From assembly GCF_003581645.1 (NCBI RefSeq), contig NZ_QXFK01000019.1:62001-126000 (forward strand): a stretch of 64,000 bases of DNA, read 5' to 3'. Positions 44,749-64,000 of the stretch are shown here, piece after piece. The DNA is from Pelagerythrobacter aerophilus. Its GTDB lineage: Bacteria > Pseudomonadota > Alphaproteobacteria > Sphingomonadales > Sphingomonadaceae. The notes under the pieces were generated by a model. It was given only the letters and a program-made list of their open reading frames with translations, did not search any database and was not told the origin of the DNA. The stretch's first letter is position 1, and every line of letters starts with the position of its first letter. The position numbers and the translations under genes were made by a program.

Positions 44749-46098
44749 TCAGCTCGCGAGCTGCTCCACCGCGCGGCGGTAGTGCGGCAGCGCCGCAACC
44801 AGCATGATCAGGATCAGCGGCAGCGTGACGGCGCCGGTGATCGCGATCGAGTAGCGCAGCGCGCCCTGGTCGCCGAAGCCGAAGTCGGTGATCGCCGCGA
44901 TGACGCTCGCGCCCAGACCCATGCCGAGCAGGTTGACCGCCAGCAGCGCAATCGCCGTGACCTGCCCGCGAAGCTGGTTCGGCGTCACGTCCTGGATCGC
45001 GGCCAGCATCACTCCTTGCGAGGCCTGTCCGATCAGCGTTCCCAGCGCCATCATCGCCAGCGCGAGCGTTGCGCTCGGCATCAGCGGCGCCAGGATCAGG
45101 GGAAAGCCCTTCAGAAGCGTCGAGAACAGGACGATGCGCATGTTCGCGTCGGCCCGTCCCGAATGCATCAATCGCCCGGAGAGCCACCCGCCGAACAGCG
45201 TGCCCACAGTGCCGAACACCAGCATGACTCCGCCGTAGTAGATACCCACGTCGCCGGGGCTCATGCTGTAAGTGCGGATGAGGAACGTCGGGAACCACAG
45301 CGCTGTACCGATGGCAAGCAGCGCGATCAGTCCGAGCGAGCCGATCAACGAGCCGAACAGCACCTTGCGCTGCATCACGTAGTCGAACCCCTCGCGCAGC
45401 GTGCTCTGTTGCGCCAGCTCCTTCGCCAGTTCCTGGCGTGGCGGCTCGCGGATCAGGAGCATTGCCGCCGCGATCAGCACGCCCGGCGCGGCGACGCAGA
45501 GGAACACTGCTTGCCACGGCTCGAAATCGCCGAGCAGAGGCAGGATGAGCCCGCCCTGATCGGTAAAGTGGGTGATCAGCCAGCCGCCGATCAGCAGCGC
45601 GAGCCCTCCACCGATCGGATAGCCGATTGCATAGAAGCTGATCGCCAGCGCCCGCCGCTTGCGTTCGAAATAATCGCTGATCAGCGAATAGGCGGTCGGG
45701 CTCAGCGTCGCCTCGCCCACGCCCACGCCGACGCGGGCGATGAACAGGCCGACGAAGCTGCTCGCAAAGCCGCACATCGCGGTCATCAGCGACCAGAACA
45801 GCACACCCCAGAAGATCAGCATCGAACGGCGCTTCGCACGATCGACGTAGCGGCCGATGGGGAGCGCGGCCATGGAATAGAGGATCGAGAAGGCGAAGCC
45901 CTGCAGCAGCCCCATCTCGAAGTCGGACAGGCCGAGATCTCTCTGGATCGGCTCGACCATCAGCGTCAGCACGCGCGCGTCGATCGCGCTGAAGCAATAG
46001 CCGACGAACAGGATCGCGACCACCAGCCAGCGGAAAGCGCCGCCCCGATGCGGAGCGGCGCCATCCCCTGCCGATAGCGTTGGTGACGCGGCTACCAT
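44749..46098 (-). CDS. MFS transporter
   Basis: A 449-residue permease with twelve predicted membrane helices. The first helix pair carries the family loop GRYVDRAKRRSMLIFWG. GVGVGEATLSPTAYSLISDYF is typical of the spinster/hexuronate-like group found in sphingomonad catabolic clusters, where members often import aromatic or steroid-like acids. It is the last gene of a minus operon: its ATG overlaps the SDR stop. The likely substrate is an intermediate or starting compound of the neighbouring pathway; the direction (import or export) is not known. Confidence 0.88.
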   Translation of the reverse strand: MVAASPTLSAGDGAAPHRGGAFRWLVVAILFVGYCFSAIDARVLTLMVEPIQRDLGLSDFEMGLLQGFAFSILYSMAALPIGRYVDRAKRRSMLIFWGVLFWSLMTAMCGFASSFVGLFIARVGVGVGEATLSPTAYSLISDYFERKRRALAISFYAIGYPIGGGLALLIGGWLITHFTDQGGLILPLLGDFEPWQAVFLCVAAPGVLIAAAMLLIREPPRQELAKELAQQSTLREGFDYVMQRKVLFGSLIGSLGLIALLAIGTALWFPTFLIRTYSMSPGDVGIYYGGVMLVFGTVGTLFGGWLSGRLMHSGRADANMRIVLFSTLLKGFPLILAPLMPSATLALAMMALGTLIGQASQGVMLAAIQDVTPNQLRGQVTAIALLAVNLLGMGLGASVIAAITDFGFGDQGALRYSIAITGAVTLPLILIMLVAALPHYRRAVEQLAS

Positions 46099-47761: not shown

Positions 47762-47823
47762 AAGACTTCTCCTCTCTCGTTCGTTCTGTTCGAAATTTCT
47801 GGCCGCACCCGGCCGCGCCGTGC

Positions 47824-48834: not shown

Positions 48835-48982
48835 GATCACTATCCTCTCTTCTCCGGCGTTGCTCGCCCGCCCGGCGAACACACCTGTCTGTTCGTTGGA
48901 TGGCAGAATAACCGCTGGGGTCCGGTGCGGAAGGCTTCGGTCGCGCACTCTTCGTGCATGTGAGCGGACAATCGCGAACCGC

Positions 48983-49888: not shown

Positions 49889-49963
49889 GCGTTCTCCCGT
49901 GCGGCGACGCTTAGCATCGCCGCCCGGGAAAACAATCGGTCCGGACTTGGTGGCCAGCTTGGC

Positions 49964-51157
49964 TTACTCGGCCGCTTCCTTGATGAACGACTCGCGCCGG
50001 GGCCCGATCTTCGCGGCGATGTCCCACAGCGCCTTCTCGTCGAGATCGTAGACCTCGAGCGCGTTGGTCCCGAGCATCTTCTGGATATGGTCGTCGGGCA
50101 GGCCGCCGAGGCTGGCGAACATCTTTTCCGCAGTGTTCGGCCAGGTGCCTTCAGGATGCGGATAGTCGGTGCCCCAGAGGATCCGGTCGATGCCGATGTC
50201 GTAGTACGACTGCGTCGTTTCCTCGTCCGGCAGCGCCGAGCAGCCAACCCACACGTTGCGCGCGAAGTACTCGCTCGGCTTCATGCTCATGTTGGCATAG
50301 TAGTCGCCGAGTTTGCCGCTCGTGTGCTTGGCCGAGGCGCGGATATCCATGAGCTGCATGATCCACGGGAACCAGAATTCGCCGCCGGCCTCGGTGAAGC
50401 AGACCTTGAGCTTCGGATACTCCTCGAACACCCCGCCAAAGGTCATGCCCCAGAGCGGGCGGGTCATCCAGAAGGCGAATTCGCACAGGTAGGTGCCGAT
50501 CCAGCCCGGCTGGGTGGTGTCGTAGCCCGGCGCCGCGCCCGAGTGGAAATGCAGCGGGAGGCTCATCTCCTCCAGCATCGCCCACACCTTGTGGTACTTG
50601 GTGTGGTTGTACATGTCGAAGCCTTCGGTGAAGGCGGGGAAGAACACGCCCTTCAGCCCGTTGTCGGCCGCCCAGCGGATCTCCTTCATCGTCTCGTCGA
50701 GATCGTAGAGCGCGGGGATGACCGCCAGGCCGATGCGGCGGTGGGGATCGTCCTGGCAGAATTCGGCGAGCCAGCGATTGTGCGCACGCGCGCCCGCCCA
50801 CTGGAGCTCCGCCCGGTCGGCGCTGGGGCGCAGGCCGATGTCGGCGCCGAACGGCGGGGCGTTGCGCTCCGTGATGCCATCGGGAAACAGAACTTCGGCC
50901 GCGACGCCGTCGCCGTCGAGGATGCGGTTGCGGATCGTGCCGTCCCACGCGCCTTCGAGGCCGTCGCCGACCTTGGCGCGCCATTTGTTGTTGAAGTCGT
51001 CGATCAGGAAGCGCTTCTCGTGTTCCTCGCGGGCCTTGATCTCCTTCTGCACCGTCTCGTCGAACAGCGCGTGATACTTGCTGTCGAGATATTCGCGGTA
51101 GCGTTCCGGCGGCAGACCCACGTGTCCATCGGAGGAAATTACCAGGTAGCGATCCAT
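49964..51157 (-). CDS. amidohydrolase 2-family metal-dependent hydrolase
   Basis: A 397-residue TIM-barrel hydrolase of the ACMSD-like group. The N-terminal strand VISSDGHVG carries one metal histidine, LPLHFHSGAAPG another, and WGTDYPHPEGTWP the conserved aspartate and histidine near the end. ACMSD-type members catalyse decarboxylation or C-C hydrolysis of ring-fission products. In a steroid-type cluster it could act on a meta-cleavage or retro-aldol product. The start MDRYLVISSDG is typical. The substrate is not determined. Confidence 0.84.
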   Translation of the reverse strand: MDRYLVISSDGHVGLPPERYREYLDSKYHALFDETVQKEIKAREEHEKRFLIDDFNNKWRAKVGDGLEGAWDGTIRNRILDGDGVAAEVLFPDGITERNAPPFGADIGLRPSADRAELQWAGARAHNRWLAEFCQDDPHRRIGLAVIPALYDLDETMKEIRWAADNGLKGVFFPAFTEGFDMYNHTKYHKVWAMLEEMSLPLHFHSGAAPGYDTTQPGWIGTYLCEFAFWMTRPLWGMTFGGVFEEYPKLKVCFTEAGGEFWFPWIMQLMDIRASAKHTSGKLGDYYANMSMKPSEYFARNVWVGCSALPDEETTQSYYDIGIDRILWGTDYPHPEGTWPNTAEKMFASLGGLPDDHIQKMLGTNALEVYDLDEKALWDIAAKIGPRRESFIKEAAE

Positions 51158-51274
51158 TGATCCGTCTCCACAATCCGTGCCGCGCCTCGGCGGGCGCGCG
51201 CATTCATCTTCGAAATCAGGCAGAGAGGATAAGGCCGCCCCGGGCCCGCGATAAAGCGCCCCGCAGCAAACTGT

Positions 51275-52507
51275 TTATCGCTCGCGAAAGACAATAGACC
51301 CTGCTGCGAGCACGCCGAGGCCCAGCACCAGCAAGCCGATCGCCAGCGCGAACGGTGCCCCAGCCCAGCCCTCGTAGGCGGCCGCGGCGACCACCGGCGG
51401 GAGCATGATCGAGGCCCCTGCAATGAACGATGTCGCCGAGGCGATCGCGACCTGCTCCGCATCGGTGCCGCCCAGCGAGGCCGCGGCGCTGAACCCCGGC
51501 CGTGCCTGGCCATAGCCGAAGCAGGCGACGACGAACCCGGTCGAAGCCGCCAGTTCGCTCGGATCGAGAAGCGCGATCAGGTTGCCCACGAGCGACAATG
51601 CGGTCCCGATCAGCATCATCCGCATCGGCACCGGCCGCATGATCCGCGGCAGGCCCCATTGCGCCACCAGCGCCATCGCCGCGCCCAGGGTCATGGTCAT
51701 GCCGATGCTGTCCTGCGCCGCAAGCGGGCCGCCCCGCACGCGATCGAGCAGGACGAAGCCGATCGTGTAGAGGTTGATCGCCTGCGCGCTGCAAAGCAGC
51801 AGCCCGAAGCTGAGCGCCGGCCCGCTTCCCCGCCCGCGCCAGACAGAGAGGATCGAGTTGTCCGAACCCGTGCGCGCCGCCGAAGGCGCCGCGGCGTCCG
51901 CTCCGCTCGGAAGGAAGACATAGGTCCCCGCCAGCGCCAGGGCGCCGAGCGCGGCGAACAGCACCATGGGTCCGGTGAGGCCTAAAGGCTCCACGATCGC
52001 GAACGGCGCCACCGCAGGCCCGACGATCGTGCCGAGGCTCAGCGCCCCGGCCAGCCCGGTGAGCACGCGGGTGCGCTGCTCCCCGGCGGTCGCATGCGCG
52101 ATCAACGACTGGGTCGCGATCGCCGAGGCGGAGCCAAGAAAGCCGAACACCGCGCGCAGCACGAAGAAGCCGAGAAAGCAGGCGAACGGCGTGATCAGTC
52201 CGGCAAGCCCGAATGCGACCGCACCGCCGCAGCCTGCCATCGACAGCAGAAAGCCGACCAGCCCCGCGCGAATGTAGCGGTTCGGCCCCGCGCCCGCGAC
52301 GTGCCGGGTCCAGAATGGCGAGCTGACCGCCCAGGTCAGCGCAGACAGCGAGAACACGCTCGCAACGAGATAGTCGGGCATGCCCACCGCCCGCCCGATC
52401 GTGGGCATGACGGACACCAGCCCGATATTCCCGATCGCCGTCAGGAACGTGACGACGCCGAGGAAGGCGAAGACGTGCCGCCCACGCGTGAACGACACGT
52501 CTTCCAA
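51275..52507 (-). CDS. MFS transporter
   Basis: A 410-residue permease with about twelve hydrophobic helices (FAFLGVVTFLTAIGNIGLVS; YLVASVFSLSALTWAVSSPFW). The conserved loop after helix two is degenerate (TRHVAGAGPNRYIR). It resembles drug/metabolite exporters in layout. It lies between the TonB-dependent receptor (19 bp downstream of that gene's stop in transcription order) and the amidohydrolase, so it may carry the receptor's cargo across the inner membrane. Not closely related to the MFS at 44749. Confidence 0.85.
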   Translation of the reverse strand: MEDVSFTRGRHVFAFLGVVTFLTAIGNIGLVSVMPTIGRAVGMPDYLVASVFSLSALTWAVSSPFWTRHVAGAGPNRYIRAGLVGFLLSMAGCGGAVAFGLAGLITPFACFLGFFVLRAVFGFLGSASAIATQSLIAHATAGEQRTRVLTGLAGALSLGTIVGPAVAPFAIVEPLGLTGPMVLFAALGALALAGTYVFLPSGADAAAPSAARTGSDNSILSVWRGRGSGPALSFGLLLCSAQAINLYTIGFVLLDRVRGGPLAAQDSIGMTMTLGAAMALVAQWGLPRIMRPVPMRMMLIGTALSLVGNLIALLDPSELAASTGFVVACFGYGQARPGFSAAASLGGTDAEQVAIASATSFIAGASIMLPPVVAAAAYEGWAGAPFALAIGLLVLGLGVLAAGSIVFRER

Positions 52508-52526
52508 GGTCAGCTCCTTTGCCGGA

Positions 52527-54857
52527 TCAGAACTTGACGCGTGCTTCGACGCCGGCCGAACGTGGCTCGCCGAACTGCCCCACCGTCAGGACCGACAGGT
52601 TGATCGCGCTGACGAGATATTCCTTGTCGGTCAGGTTCTTGCCCCAGGCCGCCAGTTCCAGCGTCGAGCCGTCGCCGAGCTCGATGTCGGTCAGCGCGAT
52701 GCGGGCATTCAGCAGTCCGTAGGAGGGCATCTTGGACAAGGGATCGGCGACGATGCTGGCATACTGTGACGAGCGCCACGAGTAGTTCGCACTCGTTTCC
52801 AGCGTCGCGAAGCCGACGTCGGCCCGATGGACCGCACCGAGCTGCCAGTTCCACTTGGGCACCCGCGATAGCACGTATTCATCGGTCACGTCGGTCCCGT
52901 CGGGCAGGACGAAGTCGGTGTACCGCGCATCGACATAGCCGCCGCCGAAGTTGATCGTCAGCGAGTCGGTCGGACGCAGCGCACCGTCGATCTCGAAGCC
53001 CGTGAACTGGGCTTCGCCCGCGTTGATGATGTTCGTGGTGACCAGCGTCGGCACGAACACGCCGGCCTGGAAGTCCTTGTAGATCGAGTGATAGACTGCC
53101 GCGTTGAGCTGCACGCGGCCGTTCCACCCGGCATACTTGAGACCGGCTTCGTACGACGTCAGGTTTTCCGGGTCGTAGGGCGTCAGGAACGCCGCATTGG
53201 TCGCCGCGGTATCGTTGATGCCGCCGCTCTTGAAGCCCGTGGCATAGCGCGCATAGACCGAGAAGCTCGGCTGTATCTTGTACAGGATGTTGAATTCAGG
53301 CGTGAACTTCTTCCACGTCCCGCTGTTGGTCAGCGGAATGAGGTCGGTGTAGCCGAGGCCGCCGGCCCCCGGCCGTGCGCCCGCCGCAGGCTGGCCGCTG
53401 CGGGTGACCGGATTGCCGTTTTCGTCGCGCACGAAGACACCCGAGCTCGGGCTCGCCGGATTGGCCGCATAAGCGGAATTCGCCAGCAGCAGTTCGTAGG
53501 CCGACTTCTCCTCGTGGCTGTAGCGCGCGCCGGCCGACACCGTCAGCCGCCCGTCGAGCGCCGACGGAGTCCAGGCAAGCTGGCCGTAGCCGGCATAGGA
53601 CGTGCTCTCGCCACCCCGCTCGGAAATGTCGAACACCTCGTTGCCACCGAACTGGAAATTCCAGCGCGGGTTGTACACGTCGTAGTTATCGTCGAGGTAG
53701 AAGAACCCGAGCGTGTACTTGAAGTCGCCGACGGTCCCGAGCGCCTGCACTTCCTGCGTGAACTGCTCGTAATCGTTGTTCAGCGTGAAGCGCAGCAGAT
53801 CGATCGGCGTGCCGTCGAAGTCGCTCATCGAGCGGGTCTTGGCCGTGCGGCGCGCGGTGATCGACTTCAGCGTGAGATCGCCCAGCCCAGGCTCCCACTG
53901 GAGCGTGAGCGCGTGGCCGGTGGTCTCGAAGTCGCTCTGCAGCGCGCTGTTGGAGCCGGTCGTGCGGGTTCGCCCATCGACCACGTACGGCGCCAAGAGG
54001 CCATTGATGAAGGCAACGGGTCCAGCGCCCGTCACCGCCAGCAGGGCGAGCTGGCTCGGCGTGCCCTTGCTGTTGGAAATGTCGTAGCTGTAGAGCGCGC
54101 TGAAGCTGTCCGCCGGCTGCCATTGCAGGTCGACCCGGCCGGCCCACAGATCCTGCTCGCCGAAATTGTCGCCAGTCGCAGAGTTGCGGTAGTATCCGCC
54201 GTACTGCTTGGTCACACCGCTCAGCTTGAGGCTGAAACCGGCGACCTCGGGCAGGTCGACCACCATCTTGCCCACGAAATTGTCGTAGGTTCCGTAACTG
54301 GCCGACACCTGCCCGCCGAACTCGCCGCTCGGCTTCTGGGTGATGAGGTTCACCGCGCCGCCGATGGTGTTCTTGCCGTAGAGCGTCCCCTGCGGGCCGC
54401 GCAGGACCTCGACCCGTTCGAGATCGACGATGTCGAACGCTGCGCCGGTCGACTTCCCGATCGGCACGCCGTCGATGTAGAGACCCACGGGCTGGTCGCG
54501 CGCGAGGCTGGTGTCTGCAGACGGCGAGAGGCCGCGGATCGTGATCAGCGGGCCGTAGGTGTTGCCGATCGTCTCGTTGATCTGGATGTTCGGCACGACA
54601 GTCGCGATGTCGCTGACCGTGCGGACCTGCGCGCGGTCGAGCGCCGCCTGATTGACCGCACTGACCGAGATCGGAACGTCGACCAGCCGCTCCTCGCGGC
54701 GCTGCGCGGTGACCACGATCTCGTCGCCGCCGGCTGCAGGCGCGCTGGCGGTTTCCGCTTCTTCCGGCGTGGCTGCCGTGTCCTGGGCCGCCGCAAGCGC
54801 GGGTGAGCAAGCGAGTGCCGATGCCGCAAGCATCAGCGCCGTCTTCGTGCGTTTCAT
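52527..54857 (-). CDS. TonB-dependent receptor
   Basis: A 776-residue outer-membrane transporter. ATG 54857 follows GGGAGAGG and opens a signal peptide (MKRTKTALMLAASALAC ... ALAAAQ). A TonB box (DEIVVTAQRREE) precedes the plug (VPISVSAVNQAAL; VEVLRGPQGTLYGKNTIGGAVN). The barrel ends in EARVKF with terminal Phe. It belongs to the large sphingomonad group used for hydrophobic aromatic and steroid substrates more than to siderophore receptors; no STN signalling domain is present. First in an apparent unit with the MFS gene. A uptake role for the island's substrate is inferred. Confidence 0.92.
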   Translation of the reverse strand: MKRTKTALMLAASALACSPALAAAQDTAATPEEAETASAPAAGGDEIVVTAQRREERLVDVPISVSAVNQAALDRAQVRTVSDIATVVPNIQINETIGNTYGPLITIRGLSPSADTSLARDQPVGLYIDGVPIGKSTGAAFDIVDLERVEVLRGPQGTLYGKNTIGGAVNLITQKPSGEFGGQVSASYGTYDNFVGKMVVDLPEVAGFSLKLSGVTKQYGGYYRNSATGDNFGEQDLWAGRVDLQWQPADSFSALYSYDISNSKGTPSQLALLAVTGAGPVAFINGLLAPYVVDGRTRTTGSNSALQSDFETTGHALTLQWEPGLGDLTLKSITARRTAKTRSMSDFDGTPIDLLRFTLNNDYEQFTQEVQALGTVGDFKYTLGFFYLDDNYDVYNPRWNFQFGGNEVFDISERGGESTSYAGYGQLAWTPSALDGRLTVSAGARYSHEEKSAYELLLANSAYAANPASPSSGVFVRDENGNPVTRSGQPAAGARPGAGGLGYTDLIPLTNSGTWKKFTPEFNILYKIQPSFSVYARYATGFKSGGINDTAATNAAFLTPYDPENLTSYEAGLKYAGWNGRVQLNAAVYHSIYKDFQAGVFVPTLVTTNIINAGEAQFTGFEIDGALRPTDSLTINFGGGYVDARYTDFVLPDGTDVTDEYVLSRVPKWNWQLGAVHRADVGFATLETSANYSWRSSQYASIVADPLSKMPSYGLLNARIALTDIELGDGSTLELAAWGKNLTDKEYLVSAINLSVLTVGQFGEPRSAGVEARVKF

Positions 54858-55001: not shown

Positions 55002-56540
55002 CTAGGCATCGCGCAGCGCCTCCTTCGTCACTTTGCCGGAGGCGTTGTGCGGCAGGCTCTCGACGAAGGCGAAGGCCCGCGGAACCTTGTAGTTCGCCAT
55101 GCACCCGCGCGCCCACTCGGCCAGTTCATGTTCCGCCAGTGCCTGGCCCGGACGGAGCACGACGAAGGCCTTGCCGACCTCGCCCATGCGCTCGTCGGGA
55201 ACGCCGATCACCGCGGCCTGCGCGATCGCCGGGTGTTCGGCGAGCAGGTGCTCCACTTCGGCCGGATAGACGTTGAACCCGCCCGAGATGAACATGTCCT
55301 TCTTGCGGTCGGTGATCCGCAGATACCCTTCCGGGCCGAGCCAGCCGATGTCGCCGGTGGAGAGCCAGCCGTCCGGATCGATCGCTTCGGCGGTCGCCTG
55401 CGGGTCGTCGAGATAGCCGAGCATCACACCGTAGCCGCGCACCTGGACCTCGCCGGCGTCGCCCTGTGCGACCGGGTTCCCCTCCTCGTCGGCGATGCGC
55501 AGTTCCAGCCCGGGCAACGGACGACCGCAGCTTTCCGCGATCAGCGCCGCATCGTCGCCGCGGCGGCACGAGGTGATCGTGGCGCACTCGGTCATGCCAT
55601 AGGCGGTGACGGTGTCGGCCAGGCCGAGCTCGCTGCGCATCCGGCGGACCAGTTCGGGCGGCACGCTGGCCGCGCCGGTCGCTGCGCCGCGCAGCGAGGA
55701 AGTGTCGAAATCCCTCTTCGCCTTCGCCGCCAGCAGCGACTGATAGATCGTCGGCGGGCCGGGCAGGAACGAGATGCGCTCCCGCTCGATCAGTTCGATC
55801 ACCCGCGGAATGTCGAACGTCGCCAGCGGATAGATCGGTGCGCCGGCGATCAGCGCCGCGACCCAGCCCGCCTTGAAGCCGAAGCTATGGAAGAAGGGAT
55901 TGATGATGAGGTAGCGGTCGTCGCTGGTCAGCCCCATCTGCCGGCCCCAGTCGGCGAACATCGGCACGATCCGGTCGTGGGTCGAGACCACACCCTTCGG
56001 CGCGCCGGTGGTCCCGCTGGTGAACATGATGTCGGAGACATGTGCTGCGGTCAGGCGGCTCAGTGCCTCGTCGATCGACGGATCCTCTGCGCCTTTCCCC
56101 TCAGCGACGAACGCCTGCCAGTCGGAATCGAGCAGCACCGTTCGCTCCAGTGCGGGAAGGTCCTCCTCCGCCAGCAGTGCCGGATAGTCGGTGCCGAGAA
56201 AGTTCCCGCAGGTGACGAGCACTTTGGCCGAGGTGCGCCGAAGCATCTCCCCCGCCTCGCGTCCCTTGAGGCGGGTGTTGAGTGGCACGATCGCCGCGCC
56301 GGTCGTCATCGCCCCGACCGCGGCGACGATCCAGTTGCGGCCATTGGACGCCCAGATCGCGACCCGGTCGCCCTCGCCCACGCCGCTTGCGAGCATGGCC
56401 GAGGCCGCGGTGCGGCATTCACGATCGAGGTCCGCGAACGACCAGCGCACCTCCCCTTCGACGAGCGCAGTGCGCGAGCCCCAGGTCCGGGCGGCCGCGG
56501 CAACGAGATGCGGAACGGTCGGAGGCAGCGGGTCGATCAT
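55002..56540 (-). CDS. fadD3: FadD3-like acyl-CoA ligase (HIP-CoA synthetase candidate)
   Basis: A 512-residue AMP-forming ligase. P-loop IMFTSGTTGAPKGV, adenine motif TAYGMTECATI, hinge ITDRKKDMFISGGFNVYPAE, catalytic lysine in NASGKVTKEAL. Beyond the general family it shares FadD3 segments: TSDDRYLIINPFFHSFGFKAG-like (~residues 220-240), FLPGPPTIYQSLL, and FDTSSLRGAATGAA. In mycobacteria FadD3 loads CoA onto HIP, the C/D-ring remnant of steroids. Last gene of the minus operon whose upstream members are IpdF-, FadE30- and FadA6-like. Its start overlaps the MaoC stop by 4 bp. The FadD3 call is from recalled similarity and should be checked by alignment. Confidence 0.85.
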   Translation of the reverse strand: MIDPLPPTVPHLVAAAARTWGSRTALVEGEVRWSFADLDRECRTAASAMLASGVGEGDRVAIWASNGRNWIVAAVGAMTTGAAIVPLNTRLKGREAGEMLRRTSAKVLVTCGNFLGTDYPALLAEEDLPALERTVLLDSDWQAFVAEGKGAEDPSIDEALSRLTAAHVSDIMFTSGTTGAPKGVVSTHDRIVPMFADWGRQMGLTSDDRYLIINPFFHSFGFKAGWVAALIAGAPIYPLATFDIPRVIELIERERISFLPGPPTIYQSLLAAKAKRDFDTSSLRGAATGAASVPPELVRRMRSELGLADTVTAYGMTECATITSCRRGDDAALIAESCGRPLPGLELRIADEEGNPVAQGDAGEVQVRGYGVMLGYLDDPQATAEAIDPDGWLSTGDIGWLGPEGYLRITDRKKDMFISGGFNVYPAEVEHLLAEHPAIAQAAVIGVPDERMGEVGKAFVVLRPGQALAEHELAEWARGCMANYKVPRAFAFVESLPHNASGKVTKEALRDA

Positions 56541-57016
56541 CCGGCGCCCCCTTCTTCGGGATAGTAGCGGCTGATCGTGTCGATCATGCAGGCGGGCCGG
56601 TCGCCGCCTTCGATCTCCACCGTCACGCGCACGGTCGACTGGATGGCGCCCTTGATCTCCTCGACCTTCAGGATCTCGCCGGTCGCCCGAATGCGGCTGC
56701 CGACCCGCACCGGGGCGAGATAGCGCAGCCTGTCGGCCCCGACATTCACCGCATGGGCGAACCCGCGCACCTCGATCAACTCGGGCAGGAAGTGGTTGAC
56801 CAGCGACACGGTCAGGTAACCGTGCGCGATCGTCCCGCCGAAAGGGCCCGCTTTCGCGCGCTCGACATCGACGTGGATCCATTGGTGATCACCGGTCACC
56901 TCGGCGAAAGCATCGACCCGGTCCTGCTCGATCGCGAGCCATGCGGTTGGGCCCAGCCGAGTGCCTTCGCTGCCGAGAAGGTCGGCGGGGCGGGCGAAGA
57001 TCCGCGGCCCGCTCAT
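56537..57016 (-). CDS. MaoC-like enoyl-CoA hydratase
   Basis: A 159-residue hot-dog-fold hydratase. The catalytic Asp-His pair lies in the family signature EVTGDHQWIHVDVERAK with GPFGGTIAHGYL, as in (R)-specific hydratases. It adds water to an enoyl-CoA, here presumably an intermediate of ring C/D opening. Both of its ends overlap neighbours by 4 bp (ATGA), placing it firmly between the ligase and the IpdF-like dehydrogenase in one transcript. The exact step is unknown. Confidence 0.9.
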   Translation of the reverse strand: MSGPRIFARPADLLGSEGTRLGPTAWLAIEQDRVDAFAEVTGDHQWIHVDVERAKAGPFGGTIAHGYLTVSLVNHFLPELIEVRGFAHAVNVGADRLRYLAPVRVGSRIRATGEILKVEEIKGAIQSTVRVTVEIEGGDRPACMIDTISRYYPEEGGAG

Positions 57017-57795
57017 GCGCGCTGGCTCGACACGGGGACGACTTCGCCGGTCATGTAGCTGGCGAGATCGGAGGCGAGGAACAGCATGACGTTGGCGACT
57101 TCCCACACTTCCGCCGGACGCCCGAAAGCCTCGCGCGCGGACAGTTCTGCGAGCAGTTCGTCGCTGGTCACTTTGGCGAGAAAGGCGTGCATCGCGATCG
57201 ACGGCGCGACGGCGTTGATCCGCACGCCGTGCTCGGCCGCCTCGAGCGCGGAGCAGCGCGTGAAAGCCATGACCCCCGCCTTCGCCGCCGCGTAGTGCGC
57301 CTGCCCCTTCTGCGCCCGCCAGCCGAGGACCGAGGCATTGTTGACGATCGCCCCCGCCTTGCGCGCGTACATTCCAGGGAGGAACGCGCGCGTCATGCGG
57401 AAGACCGAATTGAGCGTGACGTCGAGCACGCGCTGCCACTCGTCATCCGTCATGTCGACGACCGGCGTTTCACCGCCGAGGCCCGCGTTGTTGATCAGCA
57501 CGTCGACCGCGCCCAGCTCGGCCTCGGCCGCATCGCGCAACGCGTCGACCTGCGCCTGATCGGACACGTCGCAGACGAACGTCGCCGGCCGCTCGCTTCC
57601 CGTCTCCTCGGCGATCCGCGTCGCCGCTTCGCCGAGGCGCCGCTCGTGCCAGTCGCTGATCATCACCCGAGCGCCTTCCTCGACCGCGCGTTTCGCGACC
57701 GCGTAGCCGATGCCCGTGCCAGCGGCGGCGGTGACGAGCACGGTCTTGCCGGCAAGCAGGTTGCGCCCGGGCGGATAGGTCGGCGCCAGGCTCAT
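57013..57795 (-). CDS. ipdF: IpdF-like SDR dehydrogenase
   Basis: A 260-residue SDR. The cofactor loop is VTAAAGTGIG, an unusual alanine-rich form shared with mycobacterial IpdF. Other shared segments are SDWHERRLGE, NNAGLGGETPVVDMTDDEW, IVNNASVLGWRAQ with the catalytic Ser, and HYAAAKAGVM with Tyr-Lys. IpdF oxidises the 5-hydroxyl of the HIP-derived CoA thioester during steroid C/D-ring breakdown. Neighbours (FadE30-like upstream, FadD3-like downstream) are the same set as in actinobacterial HIP clusters, which strengthens the call. Confidence 0.87.
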   Translation of the reverse strand: MSLAPTYPPGRNLLAGKTVLVTAAAGTGIGYAVAKRAVEEGARVMISDWHERRLGEAATRIAEETGSERPATFVCDVSDQAQVDALRDAAEAELGAVDVLINNAGLGGETPVVDMTDDEWQRVLDVTLNSVFRMTRAFLPGMYARKAGAIVNNASVLGWRAQKGQAHYAAAKAGVMAFTRCSALEAAEHGVRINAVAPSIAMHAFLAKVTSDELLAELSAREAFGRPAEVWEVANVMLFLASDLASYMTGEVVPVSSQRA

Positions 57796-58970
57796 GCGTT
57801 CCCCCTCGGCTCGCGCGGCAGGCCCAGCCCGCGCTCGGCGATCAGGTTGCGCTGGATCTGGTTGGTGCCGCCGTAGATCGTGTCGGCGCGCGAATAGAGA
57901 TAGAGGTTGGCGAGCAGCGGCCATGCCTCGGCATCGACGGGCGCGACCTCGCCTTCCTGCCCGAGCACGTCCATCGCCAGCTCGCCGAGCGCGCGGCGCC
58001 AGCTCGCCCACTGGATCTTGTAGGTCAGCGCCGCGCCCGCGAGCGCGCCGCCCTTTCCGTCGGCCAGCATGCGAAGCGCGCCGTAGCGCATCAGCCGCAG
58101 GCCGATCTCGGCCTCGGCAAGCCGCTGGCGGAACACCGGGTCGGCCGCCTTGCCGTTGCGCTTGGCGGCGGCGATCACCGCGTCGAGTTCGTTGCGGAAC
58201 TGCATCTGCTGGCCGAGGGTCGAGATGCCCCGTTCGAACGAGAGCAGCGTGGTGGAGACCGTCCATCCCTCTCCCTCGGCGCCGACCATGTTCGCCACCG
58301 GGCAGCGCGCGCCGTCGAAGAACACTTCGTTGAATTCGGCCTCCCCATTGATCTGGCGGATCGGGCGGATTTCGATGCCGGGCTGGTCGAGATCGACGAG
58401 GAGGAAGCTCAGCCCCTCGCGCCCGCTGGTCCCATCCTCGGTCCTGGCGAGCACGAAGATCATGTCGGCGAACTGGGCCAGGCTGGTCCAGATCTTCTGC
58501 CCCTCGACGACCCACTCGTCGCCGTCACGCCGCGCGCGGGTGCGGATGGCGGCGAGGTCGGAGCCGGCGCCGGGTTCGGAATAGCCCTGACACCAGATCG
58601 CCGTGCCCTCGGCGATCGCGGGCAGGAAGCGCGCCTTCTGCTCCGAACTGCCCAGCGCCAGCAACGTCGGTCCGAGCAGCTCGACGCCCATGTGGTTGAG
58701 CCGGTTCGGCGCGCCGGCGCGGGCATATTCCTCGGCGAAGATGACCTGCTCGTTGAGCGTGGCGTCGCGCCCGCCCCAGGCGATCGGCCAGCCGATGCAC
58801 GAATAGCGATGCTCGGCCAGCCGCCGCTCCCACGCCTTGCGGCGCTCGGGCTTGTCGACGAGATTGGCGATCCCGCGGATGTCGGCGAACTCGCCGGCCA
58901 TCTGGTCTTCGAACCAGCTCGCGCACTCGCGGCGGAAGGCCTCTTCCATGTCGGAGAACCCCAGCTTCAT
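57792..58970 (-). CDS. fadE30: FadE30-like acyl-CoA dehydrogenase
   Basis: A 392-residue dehydrogenase. WCQGYSEPGAGSDLA (FAD motif), EGQKIWTSLAQFAD, AEFNEVFFDGAR and FERGISTLGQQMQF are followed by ADTIYGGTNQIQRNLIAERG at the end, with Gly in place of the Y-E-G-T glutamate. These segments parallel mycobacterial FadE30, which desaturates 5-oxo/5-hydroxy HIP-type CoA thioesters. Coupled by 4-bp overlaps to the IpdF-like gene and to the shorter dehydrogenase upstream, with which it may form a heteromer. Confidence 0.86.
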   Translation of the reverse strand: MKLGFSDMEEAFRRECASWFEDQMAGEFADIRGIANLVDKPERRKAWERRLAEHRYSCIGWPIAWGGRDATLNEQVIFAEEYARAGAPNRLNHMGVELLGPTLLALGSSEQKARFLPAIAEGTAIWCQGYSEPGAGSDLAAIRTRARRDGDEWVVEGQKIWTSLAQFADMIFVLARTEDGTSGREGLSFLLVDLDQPGIEIRPIRQINGEAEFNEVFFDGARCPVANMVGAEGEGWTVSTTLLSFERGISTLGQQMQFRNELDAVIAAAKRNGKAADPVFRQRLAEAEIGLRLMRYGALRMLADGKGGALAGAALTYKIQWASWRRALGELAMDVLGQEGEVAPVDAEAWPLLANLYLYSRADTIYGGTNQIQRNLIAERGLGLPREPRGNA

Positions 58971-59977
58971 GCCGCTTCATCCAGCATGATACGTGCAACA
59001 CGCTCGCGGTGATGCGGCCCGTCGCCGAGCATGTTCGCAATGGCGCGCGCGCGCTTGAAGAACAGGTGCGCATCGTGCTCCCAGGTGAAACCGATGCCGC
59101 CGTGGAGCTGGATCATGTCGCCCGCGACGCGCAGGTAGGTATCGGCGCAGAAGCTTTTGGCGGCATGCAGCGCGAGCGCGCGGGTTTCGTGCCCCTCATC
59201 GAGCGCGCAGGCCGCCCACCATACGGCGGAACGCGCCTGCTCGATCTCGACCGCGCGGTCCGCGAGGCGGTGCTTGTAGGCCTGGAACGAGCCCACCGGC
59301 CGACCGAACTGCTCGCGCTCGTGCGCAAAGGCGACGGTGCGGTCGAGCGCCTCCTGCGCGCCGCCGAGGGCTTCGGCCGCAAGGCACAGGACACCGGTCG
59401 CGCGGGCGGCCTCACACAGCGCCGCTCCACCGGGGAGCGGATCGCCGGCGAGCGCGAGGACCCGCGCTAGCGGACGGGTCTCATCGAGCGACTTCAGCGG
59501 CTCGACCGTCGCCGCGCTCGCATCGATCAGGTGCGAACCGCCTTCGCAGAGCAGGAGGAGTAGATCGCACTGTGCCGCGTGCGGCACGAGCATGCCCTCG
59601 CCCCCTCGCTCGCCCGCCGCGACGATCCGGTCCCCCGCCATCATCGCCGGAAGGTGCACATCGATCGCCGCCCGATCACCGCTCGCGAGCAAGGCGGCGG
59701 TCGCCATCGCGTGCCCCAGCAGCGGGATCGCCGCCAAGGTGCGGCCCGCCTGCTCGGCGACGATCGCCAGCTCCACATGGCCGAGCCCCGCGCCGCCGAG
59801 ATCTTCGGGCACCATGAGGCCGCCAAAGCCGAGTTCGCGGCAATAACCGCGCCAGAGATCGCGATCGATGCCGTTCGCCATCGCCGCGCGGGTGCGCTCA
59901 CTGGTCGCATTCTCCGCGAAGAACGCCGCCGCCGTCTCGGCGATCATCTGCTGCTGCTCGTCGAGCGCGAATGCCAT
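58967..59977 (-). CDS. acyl-CoA dehydrogenase, short partner subunit
   Basis: A 336-residue acyl-CoA dehydrogenase-like protein, shorter than the usual ~380-400. N-terminal domain intact (PEDLGGAGLGHVELAIVAEQ); the middle beta domain is reduced; the C-terminal domain has REQFGRPVGSFQAYKHRLAD and HGGIGFTWEHDAHLFFKRA. The C-terminus (HRERVARIML) has no Y-E-G-T motif. In steroid pathways such short proteins pair with a full-length neighbour to form alpha2beta2 enzymes. Here the neighbour would be the FadE30-like gene (4-bp overlap). It starts 1 bp after the SDR stop. Confidence 0.86.
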   Translation of the reverse strand: MAFALDEQQQMIAETAAAFFAENATSERTRAAMANGIDRDLWRGYCRELGFGGLMVPEDLGGAGLGHVELAIVAEQAGRTLAAIPLLGHAMATAALLASGDRAAIDVHLPAMMAGDRIVAAGERGGEGMLVPHAAQCDLLLLLCEGGSHLIDASAATVEPLKSLDETRPLARVLALAGDPLPGGAALCEAARATGVLCLAAEALGGAQEALDRTVAFAHEREQFGRPVGSFQAYKHRLADRAVEIEQARSAVWWAACALDEGHETRALALHAAKSFCADTYLRVAGDMIQLHGGIGFTWEHDAHLFFKRARAIANMLGDGPHHRERVARIMLDEAA

Positions 59978-59978
59978 C

Positions 59979-60881
59979 TCAGGTGCCCCAGACCTTGCGG
60001 GGCGGCACGCGTTCGGCGAGCAGCCGGTCGACCGCCTCACCGACGTCGTCCGGCACCCACCGCGTCCCTTTGTCGACGAATGGCCCTTCGCGCCAGCCGT
60101 CTTCGAGCATGATCTTCCCGCCCTCGAGCTCGAACACGCAGCCCGTCACCTTCGCGCTGTGCGCGCTGCCGAGCCAGACGACGGCGGGTGCGACGTTCGC
60201 CGGGTCCATGGTGTCGAAGGCATCGCCCTCGGTCGCCATCTTCTCCGCGAAGGCCTGCTCGGTCATCCGCGTGCGTGCGGCCGGGGCGAGCGCATTGGCG
60301 GTAATGCCGTAGCGGCCGAGCTCGGCCGCCTGAACCAGCGTGAGCGTGGCGATCCCGCCCTTGGCCGTCGAATAGGCGGCCTGCGCGATGGAGCCCTGCA
60401 GCCCCGCGCCGCTGGTCGTGTTGATGATCCGCGCGTCAGGCGCTTCGCCCGCCTTCGCCTTGGCCCTCCAGTAGTCGACCGCGTGACGGCTGACGCAGAA
60501 GTGCCCGCGCAGATGCACGTGCATCGTCGCGTCCCATTCGTCGAGCGTGGCGGAGACGAACATCCGGTCGCGCACGATCCCGGCGTTGTTGACCACCACG
60601 TGGAGGTCGCCGAATTCGCTCACCGCAGCCTCGACGATCCGCCTGGCCGCATCCCAGTCGGTCACGTCGTCGTAGTTGGCGACGGCTTTCCCGCCGGCCG
60701 CGCGGATTTCCTCGACCACGGCGTCTGCGGCCGACGTGTCACGCCCTTCGCCGCCCAGCGAGGCGCCGATGTCGTTGACGAGGACATTGGCCCCCTCGGC
60801 GGCGAAGGCCAGCGCATAGGCGCGGCCCAGCCCGCGCGCCGCGCCGGTGATGATCACAGTCCTGCCGTCGCAGATCCCCAT
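59979..60881 (-). CDS. SDR-family dehydrogenase, MFE2/Rv3548c-like
   Basis: A 300-residue SDR resembling the dehydrogenase half of multifunctional enzyme type 2. The cofactor motif is IITGAARGLGRAYALAF, with VNDIGASLGG (an extended insertion), VVNNAGIVRDRM, the catalytic Ser in INTTSGAGLQGS, and Tyr-Lys in YSTAKGGIATLTL. It oxidises a 3-hydroxyacyl-CoA. Similar SDRs lie in the cholesterol regulon of mycobacteria. Spacing to neighbours is 1-3 bp. Its step in this cluster is not settled. Confidence 0.86.
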   Translation of the reverse strand: MGICDGRTVIITGAARGLGRAYALAFAAEGANVLVNDIGASLGGEGRDTSAADAVVEEIRAAGGKAVANYDDVTDWDAARRIVEAAVSEFGDLHVVVNNAGIVRDRMFVSATLDEWDATMHVHLRGHFCVSRHAVDYWRAKAKAGEAPDARIINTTSGAGLQGSIAQAAYSTAKGGIATLTLVQAAELGRYGITANALAPAARTRMTEQAFAEKMATEGDAFDTMDPANVAPAVVWLGSAHSAKVTGCVFELEGGKIMLEDGWREGPFVDKGTRWVPDDVGEAVDRLLAERVPPRKVWGT

Positions 60882-60884
60882 TCG

Positions 60885-62036
60885 TCAAAGCCTCTCGATA
60901 ATCGTGACGTTGGCCTGGCCGCCGCCCTCGCACATGGTCTGCAGGCCGTAGCGGCCGCCGGTGCGCTCCAGCGCGCCGAGCAGTGTGGTCATCAGCCGTG
61001 CGCCCGTGGCGCCCAGCGGATGGCCGAGTGCGATCGCGCCGCCCTGGACGTTGACCTTCTCGTGCGGAATGCCGAGTTCCTGCATCCAGGCCATCGGGAT
61101 GCTGGCGAAGGCCTCGTTGCATTCGAACAGGTCGATGTCCGCGACCGTCATTCCCGCCTTCTGCAAAGCGTGCCTGGTCGCCGGGATCGGTGCAGTGAGC
61201 ATCCACACCGGATCGTCCGCCCGCACCGAAATGTGATGGATGCGGGCGCGCGGCGTGAGGCCGTGGTCCTTCACCGCCCGTTCGGAGGCGATCAGCAGCG
61301 CGGCTGCGCCGTCGCAGTTCTGGCTCGCGACCCCTGCGGTGACGCGCCCGCCTTCCTGTACCGGATTGAGCGCGGCGAGCCCTTCCAGCGTCGTGTTCGG
61401 GCGGATCGTCTCGTCGCGTCCGAGCCCCTCCAGCGGCGCCACCTCGGCATCGAACCAGCTGTTGTCCCATGCCGCCTGCGCACGCTCGTGGCTGGCGAGC
61501 GCGAACCGCTCCATCGCCTCGCGCGAGATGTTCCACTTCTCGGCGATCATCTCGGCCGAGTTGATCTGGTTGAGAACGCCGTCGCCGTAGCGCTCGACCC
61601 AGCCGCGCGCGGTGTTGAACGGATTGTCGAAGCCGTACGGCTGCCCGGCGAACATCGCGGCGGAGATCGGGATCGCGTTCATCGCCTGGCTTCCGCCCGC
61701 CACGACGAGATCCTGCGTGCCACTCATCACGCCCTGCGCAGCGAAATGCACTGCTTGCTGACTGGAGCCGCACTGGCGGTCCACCGTCGTGCCCGGCACG
61801 TGCTGGGGCAGGCCGGCGACGAGCCACGCCGTGCGGCCGATGTCCCCGGCCTGCGGGCCGATCGTGTCGCAGCAGCCCCACACGCAGTCGTCGACCGCGT
61901 TCGCGTCGATGCCCGTCCGCTCGACCAGCGCGCGCAGCGGGTGCGCGGCGAGATCGGCCGGATGCACTTGCGCCAGCGAACCCTTCTTGCGCCCGATGGG
62001 GGTACGGACTGCGTCGATGATATAGGCTTCGGCCAT
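60885..62036 (-). CDS. fadA6: FadA6-like 3-ketoacyl-CoA thiolase
   Basis: A 383-residue thiolase. Nucleophilic cysteine in TVDRQCGSSQQAVHF, catalytic His in GHPLGATGAR, second Cys in QTMCEGGGQANVTIIERL, and NEAFA in between. The wording around these sites (for example AEKWNISREAMERFAL and RARIHHISVRADDPVWML) closely follows mycobacterial FadA6, the thiolase of steroid C/D-ring degradation. The ATG at 62036 is 8 bp after the next gene's stop. Distinct from the thiolase at 14173. Confidence 0.88.
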   Translation of the reverse strand: MAEAYIIDAVRTPIGRKKGSLAQVHPADLAAHPLRALVERTGIDANAVDDCVWGCCDTIGPQAGDIGRTAWLVAGLPQHVPGTTVDRQCGSSQQAVHFAAQGVMSGTQDLVVAGGSQAMNAIPISAAMFAGQPYGFDNPFNTARGWVERYGDGVLNQINSAEMIAEKWNISREAMERFALASHERAQAAWDNSWFDAEVAPLEGLGRDETIRPNTTLEGLAALNPVQEGGRVTAGVASQNCDGAAALLIASERAVKDHGLTPRARIHHISVRADDPVWMLTAPIPATRHALQKAGMTVADIDLFECNEAFASIPMAWMQELGIPHEKVNVQGGAIALGHPLGATGARLMTTLLGALERTGGRYGLQTMCEGGGQANVTIIERL

Positions 62037-62044
62037 CAGGCTCC

Positions 62045-62977
62045 TCAGGCGAACGTGTGCTGCGGGCCGAGGGAGTGCACGCCGCCGAGCGCGGCGTCCT
62101 CGATCCTGTGATAGTGGAAATTGCGGTCGCCCCAGGCGCCGGCGAGCGCCCATGCGCGCTTCATCCAGAAGTGGAGATCGACCTCGTAGGTATAGCCCAT
62201 CGCGCCGTGCACCTGGATCGCGCTTTCGGCAGCGAGGTAGGCGGCATCGGTCGCGGCATATTTGGCGTGGCTGACGTGCAGCGGCGCGCTCGCCAGCCCG
62301 TCGTCCATCGCCCGCGCCGCGCGCCAGAGCACTGGGCGCACGAACTCGAGCGCTACGGCGACGTCGGCCAGCTTGTGCTTGATCGCCTGGAACCCGCCGA
62401 TCGCATGGCCGAACTGCTCGCGCACCTGCGCATAGGCAACCGCCTGATCGAGCATGGCCTCCGCCAACCCGACGAGCTGCGCCGCGCTCATCAGCGCGCC
62501 GAGATCGAGCAACAGAGGATCGTCGCTGGCGTCCTCGGGCGCGGCGACGAGGTTGCGCAGGGGGTCGACACTGGCAAGCTCGTCCCCCTCCCCGTCGGCG
62601 ATCCACGGGTTCACCGCGTGCGGCAGGGCGACGAGCTTCTCGCCCGCCGCGATTGCCGCGAGGTCACCGGTCTCCCCGCGCGCGATCAGCCACGGCACTG
62701 CGACCAGCGCGGTGTCGACCAGCGGCTCGGCCAGGCACGCTCGGCCGCATTCGCGGGCGATCAGGGCGCCGCCCAGCAGCGTCATGCCCAACCCGCCCTC
62801 GCTCTCGGGCACGAGCAGTCCGGTCAGGCCCATTTCGACGAGGCCCTGCCAGATGCGCAGATCGCGGTTACCGCCGGCGTCGAGCTGCCGCAGCACGTCC
62901 GGCCCGTGCGTGCCGGCAAGGTACGCGCGCACGGCCTCCGCCAGTTCGACGCTTTCCGGTGGAAGCCTGAAATCCAT
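62045..62977 (-). CDS. acyl-CoA dehydrogenase, short partner subunit
   Basis: A 310-residue acyl-CoA dehydrogenase-like protein. N-terminal domain PESEGGLGMTLLGGALIARE; C-terminal domain REQFGHAIGGFQAIKHKLAD and HGAMGYTYEVDLHFWMKRAW. The central beta domain is much reduced and the C-terminal Y-E-G-T motif is absent. Its ATG overlaps the stop of the full-length dehydrogenase upstream (TGATG), so the two probably make a heteromeric enzyme. It resembles the second ACAD pair of HIP clusters (FadE31-33 region). Confidence 0.86.
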   Translation of the reverse strand: MDFRLPPESVELAEAVRAYLAGTHGPDVLRQLDAGGNRDLRIWQGLVEMGLTGLLVPESEGGLGMTLLGGALIARECGRACLAEPLVDTALVAVPWLIARGETGDLAAIAAGEKLVALPHAVNPWIADGEGDELASVDPLRNLVAAPEDASDDPLLLDLGALMSAAQLVGLAEAMLDQAVAYAQVREQFGHAIGGFQAIKHKLADVAVALEFVRPVLWRAARAMDDGLASAPLHVSHAKYAATDAAYLAAESAIQVHGAMGYTYEVDLHFWMKRAWALAGAWGDRNFHYHRIEDAALGGVHSLGPQHTFA

Positions 62978-64000
62978 CAGCCCGCTCCCACGCGCGGCAG
63001 GCCGAGCAGGCGCTCGGCGGTGATATTGCGCTGGATTTCGTTCGAGCCGGCGTAGATCGGGCCGGAGAGCGAGAAGATGTAGCCCTCGAGCCATTCGTTC
63101 GCGCGGCCATCGGGCAGGGTCTGCAGTTCGGCGGCGGGGCCCAGCAGGTGCATCGCCGCGCGGTGCATCGCGCGGTCGAGTTCGGACCAGAAGATCTTGT
63201 TCAGGCTCGCCTCGGCGCCTATCGAGCCGCCGGCCATAATCCGCGCCGCGACCTGATAGGTGTTGTAGGCGTAGGCCTGCGCGCCCATCCACAGCCGCAC
63301 GACCTCCTCCCGCAGCCCCGGCGAGGCATTGTCCCCCGCCTCACGCAGCAGCGCCACGAGCCGCGCGGCGGTCGCCTGGAAACGGCCGGGCGAGCGCAGC
63401 ATCAGCCCGCGTTCGAAGCCCGCGGTCGCCATCGCCACCTTCCAGCCCTCGCCTTCGCCCGCGATGCGGTTCCCTACGGGCACGCGAACGTCGTCGAAGA
63501 ACAGCTCGGCAAAGCCCGGGTCGCCGTGAAGCTGGCGGATCGGGCGGCGGGTGATGCCCGGCGCGTTCAGGTCGAACAGCAGGAACGAGAGGCCCTTGTG
63601 CCGCTGGCTCCCTTCCTCGGTGCGGAACAGGCCGAAACCCCAGTCGGCAAAGCTCGCGCGGCTCGACCAGGTCTTCTGCCCGTTGATGACGTAATGATCG
63701 CCGTCTCGCCGCGCGGTGGTCTTGATCGCCGCCATGTCGCTGCCGGCGCCAGGCTCCGACCAGGCCTGCGCCCAGATCACCTCGCCCCTGGCCATCGGCG
63801 GCAGAAAGCGCGTCTTCTGCTCGTCCGAACCGAATTCCATGATCGTCGGGCCGAGCAGGAAGATGCCGTTCTGGTTCGCCCGCAGCGGCGCGCCGGCGGC
63901 CCAGTATTCCTCCTCGAAGATCAGCCACTCGATCAGGTCAAGCCCGCGCCCGCCGTATTCTGTGGGCCAGGTGACCATGCCCCAGTTGCCGCTCGCGAGT
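62977..64000 (-). CDS. acyl-CoA dehydrogenase (5' end outside window)
   Basis: At least 340 residues are visible; the frame is open to the window edge, and the segment ASGNWGMVTWPTEYGG shows that the first ~50 residues lie beyond it. ATG 63978 is internal and not the start. It has AWSEPGAGSDMAAIKTTA (FAD loop), INGQKTWSSRASFAD, PGFAELFFDDVRVPVGN and a C-terminal IYAGSNEIQRNITAERLLGLP. Paired with the short dehydrogenase downstream (1-bp overlap). The operon continues to the right of the window, where the remaining HIP genes may lie. Confidence 0.9.
   Translation of the reverse strand, partial: LASGNWGMVTWPTEYGGRGLDLIEWLIFEEEYWAAGAPLRANQNGIFLLGPTIMEFGSDEQKTRFLPPMARGEVIWAQAWSEPGAGSDMAAIKTTARRDGDHYVINGQKTWSSRASFADWGFGLFRTEEGSQRHKGLSFLLFDLNAPGITRRPIRQLHGDPGFAELFFDDVRVPVGNRIAGEGEGWKVAMATAGFERGLMLRSPGRFQATAARLVALLREAGDNASPGLREEVVRLWMGAQAYAYNTYQVAARIMAGGSIGAEASLNKIFWSELDRAMHRAAMHLLGPAAELQTLPDGRANEWLEGYIFSLSGPIYAGSNEIQRNITAERLLGLPRVGAG

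Follow-up and report, generated by a model that had tools for sequence, protein, structure and literature searches.

What does a bacterium do with the genes for the second half of steroid degradation when those for the first half do not accompany them? The question is raised by a 64,000-nucleotide stretch of Pelagerythrobacter aerophilus DNA (contig C6, NZ_QXFK01000019.1, positions 62001-126000), hereafter the window, whose right end carries an operon of the type that degrades HIP, the two-ring (C/D-ring) remnant of steroid breakdown. The source genome measures 3.65 Mb in 19 contigs, with a completeness of 99.97% and a contamination of 4.71%. Judged by homology, the HIP gene set is complete. 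In the genus members sampled, the operon is uncoupled from HsaC and HsaA and, as far as tested, from KstD; therefore, formation of HIP from steroids by the known 9,10-seco route is improbable there.

The whole operon comprises 14 genes, from window position 55002 to about 68564 (C6:117002-130564; Table 1). Nine of them, all on the minus strand, occupy window positions 55002-64000, the ninth being cut by the window end at 64000, and they are separated by overlaps of 1-4 bp or gaps of 1-8 bp. The initial annotation had described a tight minus-strand operon of eight genes; the layout stands, and the number becomes nine, to which its own list in fact sums. The VTAAAGTGIG loop that it had pointed out in the IpdF-like short-chain dehydrogenase/reductase (SDR) is present, and the Pfam assignments of the operon proteins in the window fit its description. 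The other 4.6 kb of the operon lie beyond the right window edge and encode EchA20-like, IpdC-like and ScdN-like proteins, IpdB and IpdA. These include the ipdA, ipdB, ipdC and echA20 homologs that the initial annotation had advised looking for to the right of 64000. Beyond IpdA (past 130564 on the contig) lie a divergent SDR gene, from 130702, and a LuxR-type regulator gene, from 131454. Genes were called with a purpose-written script, and start positions are approximate; a scan for promoters and terminators found sites no more frequent than in shuffled sequence and was uninformative.

What identifies the set as one for HIP? Curated NCBIfam cut-offs are passed by four of the nine window proteins, namely the HIP-CoA ligase FadD3, the IpdF-like SDR, the second SDR and the thiolase. 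The models NF005880 and NF005925, which we take to be those of IpdF and EchA20, respectively, are both exceeded. For IpdA and IpdB, no NCBIfam family scores above its cut-off, and the best solved structures are those of IpdAB itself (6co6 and 6con, E = 3e-80 and 5e-54). In IpdA, the glutamate of the conserved DEGM motif is presumably catalytic and was not used in the assignment. The IpdC-like protein carries PF03060 and finds its best match, at 47% identity, beside ipdAB in a Tsukamurella plasmid stretch. Its best NCBIfam family is FabK, below the FabK cut-off, which is to be expected because a likeness of IpdC to FabK is given in PMC5380842. As to the acyl-CoA dehydrogenases (ACADs), the two short ones score best against the IpdE2 family NF050027, at 205 and 112 bits, well under the cut-off of 450, and the two long ones pass no NCBIfam cut-off, nor does the MaoC protein. 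The best matches of the ACAD pairs lie at the expected positions of a Nocardia farcinica stretch, and the first pair, to which the comparison with the Protein Data Bank (PDB) was confined, has 6wy8 and 6wy9 as its nearest structures.

Sixteen proteins (14 from the operon, plus the divergent SDR and the LuxR regulator) were compared with the N. farcinica stretch (L116), which carries no annotation, and with the Tsukamurella plasmid (L115). Best matches with reciprocal support were found for 14 of them, eight in N. farcinica (37-65% identity) and six in Tsukamurella (40-59%); neither stretch offers a partner for the MaoC protein or the LuxR regulator. This reciprocity is weak since the reverse search was run against the 16 operon-set proteins alone, and so loose a test also passes six paralogs from the genome itself and three further L115/L097 matches, none of which was used. 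Rv and PRK equivalences outside the list of PMC5380842 are presumed here. The likeness to the actinobacterial set that the initial annotation had proposed is borne out by best matches; the gene order of the operon is that of sphingomonads (and of Comamonas, fadD3 apart; PMC5380842), not specifically actinobacterial. The host assignment to a sphingomonad agrees with IpdA, which is 95% identical to that of Pelagerythrobacter rhizovicinus (Erythrobacteraceae, Sphingomonadales) and 94% identical to those of two Altererythrobacter records, and the NCBIfam and IpdAB structure matches agree with the HIP assignment. Since ipdA, ipdB and an ipdC-like gene were found, the absence of ipdAB and ipdC that had been named as evidence against a HIP operon does not obtain.

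Where, then, would HIP come from? A HsaC/TesB-type query, the VOC protein of plasmid pNL2 of Novosphingobium aromaticivorans, found no match at E <= 1e-5 in the genome or in four genus mates. The wider setting was given by an even sample of the family (298 genomes, drawn from a larger group). IpdA (E <= 1e-60) occurs in 41 of these genomes; seven genus members are named in the list of results, which leaves out 237 negatives and places the genus first, and five of them have IpdA. Among IpdA carriers, an HsaC-type gene was found in 35 of 36 outside the genus and in none of the five inside; the sole exception outside is G026, with an IpdA of just 52% identity, and without it the count is 35 of 35. 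An HsaA-type gene (E <= 1e-20) is present in all 36 carriers outside the genus, weakly in G026 (29%), and again in none of the five inside, and the HsaA family scores 29.8 bits in our genome versus 338-365 in ten other carriers. Fisher tests give p = 8e-6 for HsaC and 1.3e-6 for HsaA, values that ignore shared ancestry and should not be taken for those of independent trials.

The KstD-type query was applied to 15 genomes, four of them from the genus. Its best match in our genome has E = 2e-4; three of the four genus members show nothing better than 1e-4, and G003 shows a weak match of 9e-24. Outside the genus, eight of the ten carriers have strong matches, and the other two (G008 and G009, both of which have HsaC and HsaA) reach only about 1e-29. 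BphC_D1 (PF22632) detected nothing in our genome, and no genome in that search exceeded its cut-off, so the TesB-type protein query was relied on instead. A scan of 80 loci for an HsaD motif found nothing and is uninformative. These 80 are the loci of the best 80 of 178 IpdA relatives in named genomes. The fetched flank contains a tesB-type gene at 67 of them and none at 13, two of which (L024 and L072) lie on contigs that end close to ipdA. The other 11 genomes were searched whole: seven have a tesB-type match elsewhere, one a weak partial match (L030, 31%), and three, L017, L018 and L019, none. From their equal coordinates, G223, G174 and G296 are taken as the genomes behind L017, L019 and L018, respectively. 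The initial annotation had inferred that the organism completes steroid degradation; with no HsaC/TesB-, HsaA- or KstD-type ortholog found in searches that did detect them in other genomes, and with other upper-pathway genes unsearched, this view is unsupported rather than disproved. In the literature covered, which leaves out most subscription journals, we found no report of a clade that has the HIP operon without A/B-ring genes.

On balance, we favor the view that the sampled members of the genus use HIP-type compounds that would be imported by way of an adjoining gene module and modified for entry into the pathway, with the known 9,10-seco route probably not in use. That HIP-type compounds are the substrate is held more firmly than either version of the entry step. 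By homology, the FadD3/ScdA-like ligase would convert HIP to HIP-CoA, whose propionate side chain would be shortened by the ScdC1C2-type ACAD pair, the MaoC hydratase (ScdD), the ScdE-like SDR and the thiolase (ScdF). IpdF/ScdG and IpdC/ScdK would carry out ring oxidation, EchA20/ScdY-like and IpdAB/ScdL1L2 proteins would open the two rings, and the ScdN-like crotonase, the ScdM1M2-type ACAD pair (in its probable place) and the thiolase would complete β-oxidation; step names follow PMC5380842 and PMC13101464, and the latter gives ScdD as a MaoC-family protein. Upstream of all this, HIP-type compounds would be taken up from outside through the TonB-dependent receptor and the major facilitator superfamily (MFS) transporters of the module, and its Rieske oxygenase, SDR, acetoacetate-decarboxylase-like (ADC-like) protein and amidohydrolase may modify the incoming compound so that it enters at HIP or HIP-CoA.

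It is tempting to go further and, tentatively, to see in the genus HIP specialists, with no steroid front end, a co-inherited module that would import or make HIP-like acids, an uncharacterized entry to the C/D rings and a candidate role as a sink for carboxylated alicyclic steroid leftovers; we hold this extended version with less assurance than its opposite. HIP meets the criteria for carboxyl-rich alicyclic molecules, a proxy class for recalcitrant dissolved organic matter (PMC10100752), and work on cross-feeding deals with bile-acid degraders that pass intermediates to one another (PMC8399759). A genus with the back half only, if real, makes a consumer of released HIP testable, and the TonB receptor with the Rieske module is a concrete candidate for the uptake of HIP-like acids. 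The locus also advises caution, as C/D-ring genes alone are no proof of full steroid degradation. The uncoupled front end, together with the linked module, is a variation on a known system and moderately surprising.

The module consists of eight genes on the same strand, downstream of fadD3 (window 44749-54857). From fadD3 onward, the order is TonB receptor, MFS transporter, amidohydrolase-2, LysR regulator, KshA-like Rieske oxygenase, ADC-like protein, SDR and MFS transporter. The gap between fadD3 and the likely TonB start is 144 bp, so co-transcription of the module with the operon is possible. The module immediately follows fadD3 in four genomes of the genus (ours, G001, G003 and G112) and in G006, G008 and G009; by locus, the TonB gene adjoins fadD3 at L106, L107, L108, L109, L110 and L111. 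In Sphingopyxis sp. H115 (G013), the complete module is on the opposite side of the operon, and an unclassified metagenome-assembled genome (MAG; G012) has the complete module and no operon gene within the 20-kb stretch fetched. G006 has no clear HsaC- or HsaA-type gene. Within the genus, all five IpdA-positive genomes contain the TonB ortholog, which spans two contigs in G296, and neither of the two IpdA-negative ones does. More widely, 25 of the 49 genomes searched contain a match at E <= 1e-150, 14 at >=72% identity and 11 at 55-64%. Searched against plasmids, the Rieske protein has only matches below 60% identity, with no function given.

Several observations weigh against the view that HIP-type compounds are imported and the front end is gone. 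The HsaC, HsaA and KstD queries are uncharacterized N. aromaticivorans homologs below the NCBIfam cut-offs; the pNL2 VOC query scores 226.8 bits against the HsaC model, whose cut-off is 450, and the HsaA cut-off, also 450, is reached by none of the 15 genomes. Thus, what was followed are sphingomonad homologs rather than tested enzymes. The searches did not extend to HsaD, KshB, HsaEFG, class III extradiol dioxygenases or 2,3-seco genes, so a replaced A/B route is possible. The genome has the KshA-like Rieske protein with PF19298 and one partial match just above the cut-off. Because the five carriers form one clade, the absence of the front end may be a single event. With regard to the module, G008, G009, G012 and G013 have it along with HsaC- and HsaA-type genes, so it could serve ordinary steroid degraders. 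The remaining 24 of the 49 genomes, nearly all IpdA carriers, lack a TonB match at E <= 1e-150, so the module is not required by all carriers of the HIP operon. In G309, a partial module that lacks the first MFS gene begins at 12.7 kb, and ipdA is at 816 kb on the same contig, about 0.8 Mb apart. Finally, what suggests a part for the module in uptake or priming is its position and its protein families.

The same module admits another explanation, in which it is not for HIP import and is instead a new upper pathway by which one particular compound, perhaps a seco-steroid or some other hydrindane, would be turned into a HIP-type acid within the cell. The KshA-like Rieske protein, SDR, ADC-like protein and amidohydrolase are kept as a block in several lineages, directly behind fadD3 in the seven genomes named above and with a LysR regulator of their own. 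Against this stand the occurrence of the block in genomes that have HsaC and HsaA and its partial and distant form in G309. We consider it possible but distinctly less probable than import.

Could the organism be an ordinary, complete steroid degrader, whose A/B-ring genes were missed, lie on an unassembled plasmid or are replaced by unrelated enzymes? The clusters of N. aromaticivorans and Novosphingobium sp. ES2-1 are plasmid-borne, seven of the 11 carriers that lack tesB near ipdA have it at another place in the genome, and the unsearched genes and the KshA-like protein leave room for such a route. A plasmid lost in culture may also account for the missing genes. Yet HsaC- and HsaA-type genes are missing from all five genus genomes, two of which are assembled in 2 and 3 contigs, so poor assembly is unlikely to be the common cause. 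Moreover, the HsaC-type query, which picks up weaker paralogs in many other genomes, matched none of the five at E <= 1e-5. This explanation is unlikely, more so than the upper pathway.

A decaying relic, left after the loss of steroid degradation, would fit the missing front end and the absence of IpdA from two of the seven genus members listed; we reject it on the substitution rates. In comparisons with two genus mates, the operon (14 genes), together with the divergent SDR and luxR, has dN/dS values of 0.015-0.136, and the eight-gene module has values of 0.005-0.095; two flanking control genes, respiratory-type by eye, give 0.092-0.140. The operon values are thus within or below those of the controls, and the operon reading frames are full-length. 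Against the more distant G006, dN/dS is 0.096-0.441 at a dS of 0.47-0.98. The operon looks selectively maintained, and decay is very improbable. Least probable of all is a fatty-acid or terpenoid β-oxidation operon that merely resembles the HIP set, since, common as many of the enzyme families are in ordinary β-oxidation, it is rejected by the best-match comparison, with IpdA/IpdB, FadD3 and the colinear set on one side and, on the other, own-genome paralogs that reach just 24-43% identity (in the 44 kb of window and 100 kb of stretches compared).

How does the operon compare with known systems? HIP degradation in sphingomonads is already published (PMC6895838, PMC12882949). The operon is colinear, by sequence comparison, with the known sphingomonad clusters and is a further member of an established type. 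N. aromaticivorans pNL2 and plasmid p3 of strain ES2-1 show the same order from ipdA to fadD3, extra genes apart, and the operon proteins are 39-86% identical to their pNL2 counterparts. The pNL2 extras, absent here, are a VOC dioxygenase (tesB-type) gene adjoining ipdA and internal NTF2, steroid-isomerase and second-thiolase genes; those of p3, also absent here, are an NTF2-type gene and a second thiolase gene ahead of fadD3. ES2-1 has ipdAB-type loci on two plasmids, p1 and p3 (L098, L099). The nearly full HIP operon of p3, a plasmid typed as conjugative, is adjoined by TonB receptor, MFS and amidohydrolase genes that are not close to ours.

The SD cluster of Caenibius (Novosphingobium) tardaugens is likewise a compact sphingomonad cluster with C/D-ring genes up to fadD3. 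There, too, kstD, kshA and kshB lie outside the cluster. It differs in containing tesD, and the strain has kstD and kshA homologs and more tesD homologs elsewhere and grows on testosterone (PMC6895838), whereas the genome here has no HsaC-, HsaA- or KstD-type ortholog that we could find. Knock-outs of fadD3 and tesD left growth of C. tardaugens on testosterone unimpaired, which was ascribed to gene redundancy (PMC6895838). Equivalents in Comamonas testosteroni TA441 are ScdA, C1C2, D, E, F, G, K, Y, N, L1L2 and M1M2; there, the scd genes belong to a steroid region of 120 kb that also holds tesB and A-ring genes, and scdA is in the A/B-ring cluster (PMC13101464). Locus numbers of Comamonas CNB-2 indicate the same order as here, but with fadD3 elsewhere (PMC5380842). 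In the regulon of mycobacteria and rhodococci that is controlled by the TetR repressor KstR2, the counterparts are FadD3, IpdA, IpdB, IpdC, IpdF, EchA20, FadA6, FadE30-33, Rv3548c and Rv3549c (PMC5380842); unlike that regulon, the genes here form one operon, with the MaoC hydratase included and a LuxR-type regulator adjoining. The possibility that the module is bsd I, the C. tardaugens cluster for bile-salt side chains, was rejected on a second-hand description: an amidohydrolase and an oxygenase are common to both, and bsd I alone has a CoA ligase, a MaoC protein and a pair of acyl-CoA dehydrogenases (PMC12882949).

Table 1. Genes of the HIP operon and the adjoining module (window coordinates unless marked C6, which are contig coordinates).
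Feature	Coordinates	Strand	Evidence
FadD3/ScdA-like HIP-CoA ligase, 512 aa, last operon gene	55002..56540	-	NF005801 695.8 > 657; 48% N. farcinica, 62% pNL2
MaoC-family hydratase, ScdD-like, 159 aa	56537..57016	-	PF01575; 86% to pNL2 MaoC
IpdF/ScdG-like SDR, 260 aa	57013..57795	-	NF005880 452.7 > 336; 65% N. farcinica stretch
FadE30-like ACAD, 392 aa, ScdC-type pair member	57792..58970	-	54% N. farcinica stretch; best PDB 6wy9/6wy8 Tcur3483
Short ACAD partner, 336 aa, FadE33/IpdE2-like	58967..59977	-	37% N. farcinica stretch; best PDB 6wy8_A Tcur3481
ScdE/Rv3548c-like SDR, 300 aa	59979..60881	-	NF005861 457.5 > 373; 59% Tsukamurella stretch
FadA6/ScdF-like thiolase, 383 aa	60885..62036	-	NF005865 652.8 > 591; 61% N. 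farcinica stretch
Short ACAD, FadE32-like, ScdM-type pair member, 310 aa	62045..62977	-	38% N. farcinica stretch
FadE31-like ACAD, 387 aa	62977..64140 (C6:126140)	-	
EchA20-like crotonase	C6:126140-126889		NF005925 above cut-off; 40% Tsukamurella stretch
IpdC-like NMO-family flavoprotein	C6:126889-127977		PF03060; 47% to gene beside ipdAB, Tsukamurella stretch
ScdN-like second crotonase	C6:127981-128892		
IpdB	C6:128889-129680		Best solved structure IpdAB
IpdA	C6:129680-130564		Best solved structure IpdAB
TonB-dependent receptor, 776 aa	52527..54857	-	PF07715/PF00593
MFS transporter, 407 aa	51275..52498	-	PF07690; synteny
Amidohydrolase-2 family enzyme, 397 aa	49964..51157	-	PF04909; 86-97% identity among modules compared
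LysR-type regulator, 301 aa	48983..49888	-	PF00126/PF03466; synteny
KshA-like Rieske oxygenase, up to 338 aa	47824..48840	-	PF19298 KshA_C + PF00355; best PDB KshA 4qdf, E 1.5e-39
ADC-like protein, 266 aa	46961..47761	-	PF06314; synteny
SDR, 289 aa	46092..46961	-	PF00106; synteny
MFS transporter, 424 aa, module end	44749..46023	-	PF07690; synteny

Some variation around the operon and the module deserves mention. Identities of the ScdN-like crotonase to ours (L017-L096) fall into two groups, 60-68% and 81-99%, with L056 as an outlier. By eye, the groups do not track the neighboring genes; for example, L028 and L030 have a crotonase at 90% beside genes at 55-90%. This split from the neighbors suggests exchange of this single gene between operons. 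At L109 and L110 (from the genomes of L057, a Sphingosinithalassobacter, and L068, a Sphingomonas MAG), the module is followed by an aldehyde-dehydrogenase-like gene, so called by eye, and by a second copy of the amidohydrolase gene, and L110 also has a second LysR gene.

G+C content is about 69.7% in window positions 56001-64000, compared with 62.6-68.1% in the window's remaining 4-kb bins. Two SDR matches with identical scores, at C6:783170-783898, near the end of C6, and at C14:17179-17907, may reflect a duplicated or overlapping contig end and may bear on the contamination value of 4.71%. Elsewhere in the window, positions 17581-24279 on the minus strand form a single reading frame of 2232 aa that is autotransporter-like by eye.

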